Below are positions 33,155-37,338 of a DNA stretch of 37,548 nt, in pieces. A program made the position numbers and the translations under genes. Each line of letters opens with the position of its first letter. Position 1 is the stretch's first letter. Under the pieces are notes generated by a model, which saw nothing but the letters and a program-made list of their open reading frames with translations, searched no databases and had not been told where the DNA came from. Source of the DNA: Bacteroidota bacterium (lineage in GTDB: Bacteria > Bacteroidota > Bacteroidia > Chitinophagales > Chitinophagaceae); NCBI GenBank assembly GCA_005883765.1, contig VBAQ01000153.1, positions 1 through 37,548 on the forward strand. The letters run 5' to 3'.

Positions 33155-33988
33155 TTAGGCAACCGCTTGCAATGCTTTTTTCAAGTAAACCTTTGCCAGG
33201 TGTTTGCGGTATTCTTCCGATGCATAATGATCGCTCAAAATATTTACACTCTGCACAGCAGCCTTTGCTGCTGCGGCAATAGAATCATTACTGATCACTT
33301 TTCCAGATACAACTGCTTCGGCATTACTGTCACGAAAAGCATTATCAGATACACCTGTGAATGCAATATTGGTTTTCCCATCAGGGAAACGCATCACGGC
33401 ACAACCGACAATGGCAAATCTTGATGCAGGTTGAGAAAATTTCTGGTAAGAAGTTTTTGTTCCTTGTGCCGGAACAGGAATGCGTATAGCAACGATGATC
33501 TCATTGTCCTGTAATGACGTTGAGAACAGTCCCGTAAAAAAATCAGTTGCTTTAATTCTGCGTTTGCCATTGCTGCCCTGTACTTCGATAGCAGCATCAG
33601 CCGCTAATACCAGGGCGGGCCAATCGGCCGCAGGGTCAGCATGTGCAAGGCTGCCACCAATAGTACCATGGTTGCGGACCTGTACATCACCAATCATAGA
33701 AGCACCCTCAGCAAAGAAAGGAAGTTTGCTCTTGATGAGCTTATCACCAGCAATATCTGCATGAGTGGCGCCGGCGCCAATAACGATCTCGCCATCTTCT
33801 TCTTTTATTCCTTTGAGTGAAGCGATGGCGGCTATATCCACCAGTTTGGATGGCTGACTTAAACGCAGTTTCATTGCAGGCAACAAACTGTGTCCGCCTG
33901 CCAGTATTTTACTATTGTCATTGGATAAAGCCGCAATGGCTTCATCTACTGTTTTTACTTTTTGATAATCGAATGAAACAGGAATCAT
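33155..33988 (-). CDS. coxM: FAD-binding medium subunit, CoxM type
   Basis: The flavoprotein subunit takes electrons from the iron-sulfur subunit. The 277-residue protein has the PCMH-fold FAD motifs AGGHSLLPAMKLR (30-42), GAGATHADIA (71-80) and the second motif RNHGTIGGSLAHADPAADWP (105-124), then the CO-dehydrogenase flavoprotein C-terminal domain with YQKFSQPASRFAIVG. ATG 33988 is chosen: the ATG at 34009 lies inside the palindromic repeat 34002-34025 and would add seven residues unlike the family. It is separated from coxL by a 230-bp repeat element, an unusual interruption for such operons. A hairpin with T run in that element points in the plus direction and should not block coxM. Confidence 0.92.
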   Translation of the reverse strand: MIPVSFDYQKVKTVDEAIAALSNDNSKILAGGHSLLPAMKLRLSQPSKLVDIAAIASLKGIKEEDGEIVIGAGATHADIAGDKLIKSKLPFFAEGASMIGDVQVRNHGTIGGSLAHADPAADWPALVLAADAAIEVQGSNGKRRIKATDFFTGLFSTSLQDNEIIVAIRIPVPAQGTKTSYQKFSQPASRFAIVGCAVMRFPDGKTNIAFTGVSDNAFRDSNAEAVVSGKVISNDSIAAAAKAAVQSVNILSDHYASEEYRKHLAKVYLKKALQAVA

Positions 33989-34001
33989 AAAACAATAATT
34001 T

Positions 34002-34231
34002 ACCCCCATCCCCTAAAGGGGAGTAAGGCGTTGATATTCCTTCCCCGCAGGAATAATTTTTTAACGAAGCAATTTTATAGATGCCATTGGCACAACAGAT
34101 GAAAGTATTGCGACGCAAGGGACGATGCTATGAAAAACCATCGCCGGGATCAAAAAAATAATTCTTCATAAACCGGGTTAAACAAAAAAACAAAGAACTA
34201 TTCCCAATACTCCCCTTTAGGGGATGGGGGT
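34002..34231. repeat. Element A: 230-bp MITE-like element with perfect 24-bp terminal inverted repeats
   Basis: The arms 34002-34025 and 34208-34231 are perfect inverted repeats of 24 bp, and each contains an internal palindrome CCCCTAAAGGGG or its complement. Between them lies non-coding sequence with a hairpin TATTCCT/AGGAATA followed by six T (34035-34062), a small dyad TGCCA-T-TGGCA near 34082-34092, and the core 34098-34155 shared with element B. The core has the dyad TTGCGACGCAA and the string ATGAAAAACCA. The right arm overlaps the coxL stop codon at 34231-34233; the left arm contains an unlikely coxM start. No target-site duplication is obvious. It looks like a REP-type or miniature mobile element that has landed between coxM and coxL. 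Confidence 0.75.
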
Positions 34232-36584
34232 TACTGCATGGCACGCCAAACTCTTTCTGATGTCAGCGGCATTCGGATATCTTTTACTTTATGTCCACCA
34301 CTCCATAAGGCATCCAACACAGCATTTACTACCGCAGGAGGTGAACCGATAGTACCGGCTTCGCCTGCACCTTTTACCCCGAGTGGGTTGTGAGGACAAG
34401 GAGTAACCTGGCTGCCTGTTTCAAACATCGGGAAATCATCGGCGCGAGGCATACAGTAGTCCATATAAGATGCATTGGTAAGCTGACCGTTCTCATCATA
34501 CTCGGCGCCTTCGAAGAGTGCCTGTCCCACTCCCTGCGCTACGCCACCATGTATTTGCCCTTCTACGATCATCGAGTTGATAACATTACCGACATCATCC
34601 ACAGTTCCACAACTGCGATATGACAACCGAACGGGAAAGTAAAATTGGCTGGATCATAAAAACTGCTGAAGTCAAGACCTGGCTCGAGATCTTTTGGATA
34701 ATGATGCGGTACATAAGCCGTGAGTGCCACATTACCGAACGGAACAGATTTATCCGTTCCTTTTACGGTGAATTTTCCATTTGCAAAATCAACATCATCA
34801 GCACTGGCTTCGAGCAGATGCGCAGCGATCTTCTTTCCCTTCTCAATTATTTTTTCAATGCTTTTTACAATGGCAGTTCCCCCAACAGCAATACTTCTTG
34901 AACCATAAGTACCCATGCCAAATGCAACTGATTCGCTATCGCCATGTACTATCTCCACATCATCCATACTGATGCCGAGTTTATCGGCCACTACTTGCGC
35001 AAAAGTGGTTTCATGCCCCTGCCCATGAGAATGCGAACCGGTATATACACTTACCTTACCAGTAGGCTGCACCCGCACATGACCTACTTCAAATAATCCG
35101 GCTCTTGCTCCCAACGCTCCAGCCACAGCAGATGGAGCAATCCCACATGCTTCTATATAGGTGGAAAAACCAACGCCCAATAATTTTCCATTGTTCGCAG
35201 CTTCCTTTTGTGCCTTGCGGAAATCTTCATAGTCGAGTATCTCCAATCCTTTTTTCAACACAGCTTCATAATTTCCGCTATCATATTGCAAAGCCACCTG
35301 TGTTTGATAACCGGGTTGATTAACACCATCAAATGGCGGAATAAAATTTTTAAACCGAAGTTCGGCCGGATCCATATTCATTTCATGAGCAGTTAAATCA
35401 ACTAATCTTTCAAGAAGATAACTGGCTTCAGGTCTGCCTGCACCGCGATAAGCATCAACCGGAGTAGTATGTGTGAACGCGGCTGTGACATCAATATTAA
35501 TTTTTGGTGTGGTATATAAACCCTGCAACAAGGTGCCATGGAGGTAAGTGGGAACACAGGACGCAAATGTTGAAAGATAAGCGCCGAGATTAACATAAGT
35601 CTTTGCACGAAGTGCAACAATTTTTCCATCATTGTCAAAACCCATTTCGGCTTTGGTGATATGATCACGGCCATGAGCATCCAATAAAAAGCTTTCGGTT
35701 CTTTCGGCTGTCCATTTAACCGGCCTTCCGATTTTCTTTGTACACCAGGTCAACAATGCTTCTTCAGTATAATGAAAACACTTGCTGCCAAATCCTCCGC
35801 CAACATCGGGGCCTATCACATGTACTTTATGCTCCGGTAATCCCAAAACAAAGGCACTCATTAATAACCTTATCAGGTGCGGTGCCTGCGTGCTCGTATA
35901 TAAAGTGTACTTATCATTAATAGCATCATAAGAACTGTTATAACTGCGGGGCTCAATAGCATTCGGCACCAAACGTTGGTTTACAAATTCCAACGTAGTT
36001 ACATGCGATGCTTTACTCATTGCTTCATTCACTTCTTCAATAGGATTTCCCAAAGCCCAGTCAAAACACATATTATTGGGAACATCATCATGCACCAGCG
36101 GTGCACCCGACTGCGTTGCTTTAAAAGCATCTACCACGCAAGGCAATTCTTCATATTCTACATTCACTGCTTGTGCAGCATCCACCGCTTCTTCTTTTGA
36201 TTCTGCAATTACAATAGCAATCGCATCACCTGCATGTCTTGCTTTATCTGCCACAAGCAATGGATGCTTTGGCTCCCTCATCGCATTGCCATTTTTGAAA
36301 TTTACCTGCCAGCCGCAAGGCACGCCATTTACTCCCGCCACATCAGCGCCGGTATAAATAGCCACCACACCCGGCATCGCTTTCGCTGCACTTACATCAA
36401 CACTTAAAATTTTTGCATGAGCATATTGACTGCGAACGAATGCAGCATAAGTTTGACCCGGCAACACAATATCTTCGGTAAACTGACCGTGACCGGTGGT
36501 GAATCTTTTATCTTCAACCCGCTTAACGGATTTGCCGATCAGGCCACTTGCTGTGGCCATTCCATTACCCTTATTTGTACTCAT
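34231..36584 (-). pseudogene. coxL: CO-dehydrogenase-like large subunit (form II CoxL), disrupted by an internal deletion
   Basis: The molybdopterin subunit of a CO-dehydrogenase-like enzyme. The first frame (ATG 36584) shows GPDVGGGFGSKCFHYTEEA (259-277), the active-site loop AYRGAGR (378-384), SHSHGQGHETTFAQVVADKL (517-536) and GTYGSRS (558-564), then [11 protein letters not shown] (650-660), after which it leaves the family frame and stops at 34569. The rest of the protein follows in a different frame (34609-34231: [38 protein letters not shown]). About 15 residues between VVE and VDDVGN are missing and only 2 nt stand in their place, a net loss of about 43 nt. The gene cannot make a full enzyme as written. 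AYRGAGR lacks the copper-binding cysteine of true CO oxidisers (AYRCSFR), so its substrate was probably not CO. The ATG overlaps the coxS stop by 4 nt. Confidence 0.85.
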
Positions 36585-37087
36585 AATGCCGCCTCCTTTT
36601 TAGTTTTACGGGCACGGGGAGCAGACATCTTATCAGCAGCATACTGCACGGCTTTTACAATATTGTGATAGCCCGTACAACGGCAAAAATTTCCTTCCAG
36701 TGCTGCACGAATCTGTTCTTCGCTTGGCTTCTTATTATTCTTTAGCAAATCAGCCGCGGTCATGATCATACCCGGTGTGCAAAAACCGCATTGCAATCCA
36801 TGACACTGATTGAAACCTTCCTGCAGCGGATGCAGTTCACCATTTGTTGCCATGCCTTCAATCGTAGTGATCTTACATTTATCGGCCTGCACTGCCAGCA
36901 TTGTGCAACTCTTCGTTGCCTTGCCATCTACAAGTATTGTACATGCACCGCAGCTGCTGGTATCGCAGCCTACGTGTGTGCCGGTAAGTTTCAGCACATC
37001 ACGCAGGTAATACACCAGCAATAACCGCGGCTCCACTTTGTCAATGTGTTTAGCACCATTAACTGTTACAGTGATTTTAGTACTCAT
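36581..37087 (-). CDS. coxS: [2Fe-2S] small subunit, CoxS type
   Basis: A 168-residue iron-sulfur subunit with the two expected clusters: C41, C46, C49, C61 (motif [16 protein letters not shown]) and C100, C103, C135, C137 (motifs [16 protein letters not shown] and [15 protein letters not shown]). These motifs are closer to CoxS than those of the iorA product (CTPG rather than CHSG). It carries electrons from the Mo site of CoxL to the FAD of CoxM. The C-terminus has a basic tail ([13 protein letters not shown]). The stop overlaps the coxL ATG by 4 nt, which suggests translational coupling; this intact, well-conserved gene next to a broken coxL suggests either recent decay or an assembly error. 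Confidence 0.93.
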
Positions 37088-37104
37088 GGAATTTGATTTG
37101 TAGG

Positions 37105-37338
37105 CCTCACCCTCTTGTCCTCCGAAGGAGGAGGCCGGGCTTTAATATGTTTTAATGAACTTTAGTAATTAAGCATTTCGTCATTGCATCAATTTTCTGC
37201 AATGTATATTTTGATACCAGCGGTGGTTTTTCATGGCATCGTCTGTTGCGTCGCAATCACTTCACCGTTCCGTTTTCATGCCATCATGACCTCACCCTTC
37301 TTATCCCTCTCCAAAGGAGAGGAGAGGCCAGGCTTCAA
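37105..37338. repeat. Element B: REP-like direct repeats flanking a core shared with element A
   Basis: Two direct copies of a palindrome-bearing unit stand at 37105-37145 and 37290-37338. Each begins CCTCACCCT and ends GGCC-GGCTT-AA, with hairpins TCCTCC-GAA-GGAGGA (37118-37132) and CCTCTCC-AAA-GGAGAGG (37306-37322). Between them the minus strand carries the 58-bp core at 37209-37266, 48 of 58 positions identical to 34098-34155 in element A with no gaps. The minus strand also shows a second related string near the core (GATGGCATGAAAAC beside GATGCCATGAAAAAC). It fills the spacer of 373 nt between coxS and the partial gene at the right edge; I see no gene or clear promoter in the rest of that spacer. 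Confidence 0.7.

Follow-up and report, generated by a model that had tools for sequence, protein, structure and literature searches.

A dispersed family of intergenic units with a nearly invariant core in Chitinophagaceae

Two similar intergenic segments of the window, the 37,548-nucleotide stretch of DNA analysed here, are two members of a real dispersed family, found so far in Chitinophagaceae, with more than a hundred units per genome in unit-rich species. The units nearly always lie between genes, and their core and often their place are kept while the surrounding DNA changes, so they probably do a job. The reading that we favour, at a probability a little short of even, is that these units are a non-coding intergenic family of lineage-specific, cis-acting recognition sites, most simply for a putative DNA-binding protein; this assignment is drawn from sequence comparison.

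Results

Two units beside a carbon-monoxide-dehydrogenase-like cluster

The window pair adjoins a minus-strand gene cluster that resembles those for carbon monoxide dehydrogenase, with domains assigned by Pfam and gene names by our own reading. It includes a coxS-like iron-sulphur subunit (36581-37087, minus strand; PF01799), a coxL-like molybdopterin subunit in two overlapping frames (34231-36584, minus strand), a coxM-like FAD subunit (33155-34009, minus strand; PF00941 and PF03450), an AAA ATPase and a CoxE-like protein. Two frames, 34569-36584 and 34231-34626 (minus strand), make up the coxL-like gene; one matches MoCoBD_2 positions 2-211 and the other positions 225-283, the split being the result of either a frameshift or an assembly error.

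Unit 1 (34096-34168, plus strand) is located in the coxL-coxM gap, with its 3' end toward the coxL stop codon, and unit 2 (37200-37288, minus strand) is located upstream of coxS and reads toward it. Both are delimited by alignment and by matches to the family model R1 (see below), at E=7e-9 over model positions 25-95 for unit 1 and E=2.9e-13 over positions 5-91 for unit 2, both units being among the 33 copies used to build that model. The sequence-only reading had reported that 34098-34155 (plus) and 37209-37266 (minus) agree at 48 of 58 positions without gaps; the count is exact, and when the two intergenic regions were shuffled 1000 times (first-order), every shuffle fell below it (best 58-mer, maximum 34, mean 28.9). 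The window contains the pattern TTGCGACGCAANNGACGATGCNATGAAAAACCA twice, compared with a mean of 0.00 in 100 shuffles. The 5-bp dyad around one central A described in that reading is indeed present as TTGCGACGCAA (by pattern match at 34108-34118, plus strand, in unit 1 and at 37246-37256, minus strand, in unit 2), but together with ATGAAAAACCA it is typical only of a small subtype, to which L001-L005 are nearest among the core matches read (see below). The flanks differ, as had also been claimed: unit 1 lies between two G/C-rich palindromic repeats, 24-bp stretches at 34002-34025 and 34208-34231, each the perfect inverted copy of the other, whereas unit 2 is flanked by other repeats (by eye). 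G/C-rich palindromes of the type CCCCTAAAGGGG recur intergenically in the genome of the window, near some units, and are possibly terminators or another repeat class. We considered and rejected the possibility that a mobile cassette has such a pair as its matched ends: the similarity of the two window units is unusually high (0.82; 99th percentile, 0.80), but bracketing pairs taken together scarcely exceed the background (0.626 and 0.625 against 0.606).

Copy number and range of the family

A DNA search of the genome of the window (hereafter G000) recovered further copies of the pair. Core matches with at most one mismatch numbered 87 and 80, whereas the reversed control gave 25 and 34; among the matches listed, GTGCGACGCAA is commoner than the window form. 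Of 55 core matches that were read, 47 were kept and 8, including L031, omitted because they were coding or had no arms, and 33 of the 47, excluding hairpin-insert, truncated and odd copies, were used to build R1, a model of sequence alone. Among the best 150 candidates scored in G000, 144 places match R1 at E<=1 and 119 at E<=1e-3, 33 of them by construction; eight of the nine exact matches to TTGCGACGCAA fall at model matches, one of these eight inside an ORF. A DNA uptake sequence was among the readings considered for the family. The complete genome of a relative (G005) contains at least 150 R1 places, and the true number may exceed 150 because the best 150 all score at E<=3.8e-10.

At E<=0.1, R1 matches 28 of 59 genomes, including 26 of the 36 Chitinophagaceae, and 16 of these 36 contain at least 20 matches each (best 70 per genome scored). 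The other 10 Chitinophagaceae genomes lack an R1 match, and the family is thus dispensable. Among the 23 genomes of other families, two contain one match each, at E>0.04. A pattern scan of a species-level collection yielded at least 118 stretches with the core, the titles of which name Chitinophagaceae genera, Chitinophagaceae or Chitinophagales bacteria or, less precisely, Bacteroidota, Bacteroidetes or Sphingobacteriales bacteria. In IMG/VR, 13 stretches of putative viral contigs (L285-L297) contain the core. The suspicion of a dispersed element voiced from the two window copies is thereby borne out in G000 and in its relatives. Its companion remark, that no named family is known for the element, is in line with the limited range of papers searched, including those on repeats and REPs in Bacteroidetes, which gave no description of this family.

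Anatomy of the unit

The general unit, described in part from a profile of 68 copies from which the window subtype was left out, is a non-palindromic segment of roughly 80 bp. Its centre, AAGWGTGCGACGCAAC, hardly varies, its arms are half-conserved and its 3' end is A-rich; the consensus is near TTGCTGAATAGAATTACCGAACGTACAAGAGTGCGACGCAACAGAAGCTTAATAGTAGCAATGCAGCTGGTTACATAAAAA. Most copies carry a 4-bp dyad, TGCG-A-CGCA, preceded by G, and conservation reaches further to both sides than in the core recognised in the window. The strongest coupling in a mutual-information analysis of 207 distinct, nearly full-length copies (out of 454 hits) lies inside the dyad and is produced by a second core class, GAGTGACACAAC, represented by 11 copies, in which columns 40/44 change from C-G to T-A while GTG-A-CAC is kept. 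This class is present in 16 of the 59 genomes, with 0 control matches.

The sequence-only reading had listed a structured RNA among its candidates, a suggestion that does not survive. The mutual-information analysis of the 207 copies detects no stem beyond the dyad, the other coupled columns forming none; RNAalifold returns three invariant dyad pairs without covariation; and no Rfam family matches the window at gathering scores. A coding role was rejected as well: open frames occur in several copies, but single-base indels are common in the arms, and the core is near-invariant at all codon positions (by eye). In G000, one unit-like match (L031, on G000:C4, at about 1468-1543 of that locus; model E=2e-8) lies in frame within an 826-codon ORF.

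In some G000 units, the core is interrupted at one fixed position, directly before TGCGACGC, by a double hairpin. Exact copies of the junction string number 10 in G000 and one in G001, which is a second species of the window's genus, and the 57 other genomes contain none; two further G000 copies (L084, L378) contain base changes. The G000 carriers are L055, L057, L058, L068, L078, L079, L084, L086, L089, L378, G000:C302:12729 and G000:C360:21917, with the hairpin loops swapped in some insert copies. In both sites compared with G001 orthologues (L079/L151 and L058/L152), the latter are empty. The double-hairpin sequence has entered the unit core within the genus of the window.

Conservation of core and place

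For comparison with G000, we chose 16 unit sites of G001 by model score. At 9 of the 16, G000 contains a unit in the same gap and the same orientation, a figure that is biased because the partners were fetched by core search (six) or by the model (three), so that a gap that had lost its unit would be missed. At three further sites (L142, L145, L149), one flanking gene tested is absent, distantly matched or differently neighboured in G000, and one (L157) falls on a run of N; retention is accordingly at least 9 of 12, the remaining three (L148, L154, L156) being those where losses could hide. The string TGCGACGCAA is identical in all nine pairs. Four-fold codon sites in six of the nine neighbourhoods are identical at only 535 of 1355 positions (39%), so that neutral DNA is close to saturation, and in most of the six pairs measured the core is far better preserved than the arms. 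That the core stays identical at such divergence is probably due to selection on it.

Recent copying does not seem to account for this constancy. Within seven genomes (21-94 copies sampled in each), mean identity between copies is 0.58-0.68 and that of the best pair only 0.74-0.87, so no recent copying that would renew the core is seen in these partial samples.

Few sites are common to different genera. From 11 candidate neighbourhoods, one (L010) was without a unit, leaving 10. Gap and orientation are shared on both sides in two (L081/L128 and L108/L124); the orientation agrees on one side only in another two (L003/L102, and L107/L058 at 47% protein identity); the rpoB-rpoC gap, named from translations, is occupied in opposite orientations; and in the remaining five the unit lies elsewhere.

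Arrangement and orientation of the units

Close neighbouring units are mostly inverted. Among 48 neighbour pairs with a gap below 400 bp, taken from hits at E<=0.05, 42 are 5'-to-5' inverted, 2 are 3'-to-3' and 4 are tandem, 3 of the tandem pairs having negative gaps and possibly representing halves of one interrupted unit. Below 200 bp, 31 pairs are 5'-to-5' versus 1, and among the best 150 matches in G005, all 10 pairs below 400 bp are 5'-to-5'. At 0.2-4 kb in the loci examined, 69 of 83 neighbours are opposite (41 facing and 28 facing away, with 11 and 3 parallel; binomial p=7e-10). The few pairs beyond 4 kb (3 opposite, 8 parallel) show no inverted bias, and in G005 it is weak at 0.4-8 kb (21 opposite, 11 parallel among the best 150 matches). 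If the units were sites of a site-specific recombinase, deletion would remove parallel neighbours and leave the inverted ones; a nearly invariant core and an inverted bias that is strongest at short range speak for this. However, positions and orientations are kept between species in the nine pairs found, and the 31-to-1 excess is unexplained by recombination alone; we consider this reading highly improbable.

With respect to the flanking genes, orientation is neutral. By simple ORF calling, 94 of 268 single units read against both neighbours, 91 with both, 43 lie between convergent and 40 between divergent genes; the corresponding counts for 30 doublets are 12, 11, 4 and 3. More than 30 bp overlap with a mechanically called ORF in 50 of the 268 singles. 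A sigma-70-like promoter, TTGCTG-17-TACAAG, was rejected on two grounds: many copies have CACAAG or TTGAAG at the position concerned, and the singles are split almost evenly, 94 against versus 91 with both genes (n=268). A general role as a 5' leader element was rejected because doublets occur between genes of any orientation. A replication-strand bias is not evident among the best 150 matches of G005, in which the origin was not located. In L119 (1085-1641), a small ORF lies between two inverted units, bounded by GTTAGCGGC and GCCGCTAAC, which may resemble integron attC ends.

Most units are single, without a hidden partner: a weak inverted partner upstream was detected for 16 of 268 singles and in no shuffled sequence. 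The arms of the doublets, again from hits at E<=0.05, are no more alike than those of shuffled pairs over the whole unit (0.589 versus 0.587) or the 3' arm (0.526 versus 0.525), although the 5' arms are slightly more alike (0.352 versus 0.287, a value reached in 3 of 300 shuffles). These measurements bear on the possibility that the units are a non-autonomous mobile repeat, REPIN- or MITE-like, which was moved in trans by a putative transposase and is now mostly inactive, the singles being remnants of inverted pairs. Such a repeat would be compatible with the 42 inverted pairs out of 48, with the uneven distribution of the units, from none in some genomes to at least 150 in another, with sites that differ between genera, including the rpoB-rpoC gap occupied in opposite orientations, and with the relative rarity of units between divergent genes (40 of 268 singles, compared to 62 of 179 gaps without a unit). 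Conversely, there are no recent copies among those sampled, pair arms resemble shuffled pairs over all but the 5' arm, few singles (16 of 268) show an inverted partner, and the core is kept at near-saturated divergence. On balance, we judge a mobile repeat to be rather unlikely, though the most probable of the alternatives.

A different possibility is an RNA-level leader or trailer element, in which inverted units at transcript ends or within one gap would pair via the core, protecting the mRNA or leading to its cleavage. The excess of inverted neighbours at 0.2-4 kb agrees with this scheme, and inverted pairs have complementary cores, the 21 doublets that were folded reaching -26 to -82 kcal/mol (no control). 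Some units are located in leaders of gyrA-, metK-, rpoC- and groEL-like genes (named from reading translations), and of 225 singles, 144 have the 3' end nearer to a gene than the 5' end, whereas 80 have it farther away. However, most units are single, sense and antisense placements are equally common, and the pair arms as a whole do not covary, so that we regard an RNA-level element as unlikely. A hairpin formed by the inverted pair is not favoured: the doublets can fold, but arm likeness over the whole unit is no better than that of shuffled pairs.

The units might also mark the boundaries of single genes or of small operons in an orientation-aware manner, being joined or insulated by a putative lineage-specific protein, a reading to which we assign a distinctly low probability. 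A unit would then tend to face a gene end, and close neighbours would face each other or face away. If true, this would be a bacterial counterpart of paired boundary elements, at more than 100 loci per chromosome.

Y1 transposases and the units

The sequence-only reading had raised a link to a RAYT-like transposase, which the distribution of the two elements does not bear out. PF01797 matches were found in 44 of the 59 genomes. Six of the 16 unit-rich genomes (G001, G011, G012, G013, G025 and G027; completeness of G001, 75%, and of G013, 72%) contain no PF01797 match stronger than 1e-14, whereas the unit-free G002, G003 and G031 have strong matches. In unit-rich genomes, a unit lies within the fetched stretch at 6 of 21 distinct transposase places, on one side only, where about 3 are expected from our own density estimate. 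Beside six of the seven transposase loci examined, there are other small palindromes (by eye). A RAYT partnership is thus not supported. The sequence-only reading had also asked whether copies always lie between REP-like palindromes; many are placed otherwise (by eye, uncounted). In L306, L313, L320, L328, L329 and L330, Chitinophagaceae Y1 transposase genes have small palindromes such as CCCGTAGGGAC adjacent to them (by eye). PMC6006769 reports atypical structures for one Bacteroidetes class of Y1 proteins, and the palindromes at the transposase loci agree with that report.

Discussion

A putative recognition site

We chose a protein recognition site as the best explanation on three grounds, namely the use of both orientations, the lack of a conserved RNA structure and the persistence of the dyad through the change of core class; the DNA rather than the RNA level is favoured because there is no covarying stem beyond the dyad and singles read against and with their neighbouring genes almost equally often. 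A putative lineage-specific protein would read the 16-bp centre around the GCGACGC dyad and make contacts in both arms, and the second core class, in which the dyad is kept, would represent a variant of this site. The role of such a protein could be chromosome organisation or the marking of a transcription boundary. The spread of the units, perhaps in the form of a mobile repeat, probably dates far back, and selection would have kept them since. Several considerations speak against a recognition site. The units are absent from 10 of the 36 Chitinophagaceae genomes, the choice of partners at the nine conserved sites is biased, few sites are common to different genera, one unit-like match is intragenic, and the inverted bias is weak in G005 beyond 400 bp; moreover, a length of 80 bp is considerable for the site of a single protein, and gene conversion among copies could be another source of a constant core.

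Intergenic repeats of bacteria are often taken as selfish or decaying. Here, a single core is preserved in more than 100 diverged copies per genome, and many copies have stayed in place between two species with near-saturated synonymous sites, which points to a chromosome-wide cis-acting system, with a putative partner, in a large bacterial family of the environment. The defined 80-bp probe allows a direct search for this partner, with the natural absence of the units from some genera providing controls.

Comparison with known intergenic repeats

Terminal inverted repeats, target duplication and recent copies are the hallmarks of MITEs. The units share with them the inverted pair form; they differ in that single units predominate, no near-identical copies were seen among those sampled and no parent transposon was found in the loci examined.

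REP and REPIN sequences are recognised by a short palindrome that forms a stem-loop and in many cases carries a GTAG or CGTC tag. The units resemble them in their high copy number, their extragenic location and their occurrence singly or as inverted doublets. In contrast, the units are about 80 bp long, with a non-palindromic conserved body, and in place of a stem-loop there is only a three-pair dyad without hairpin covariation; furthermore, the RAYT loci in these genomes show other palindromes, and no recent unit copies were seen. A REP is described as a tagged palindrome of 20-40 bp (PMC3733652), and insertion sequences are reported to target REPs (PMC3116915); some units, too, contain another sequence.

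Unlike in BIMEs, the units are often spaced hundreds to thousands of bases apart, with genes between, and the units themselves are not palindromic. Yet, much as REPs alternate in the BIMEs described, along with their protein binding, in PMC2817692, neighbouring units tend to alternate in orientation.
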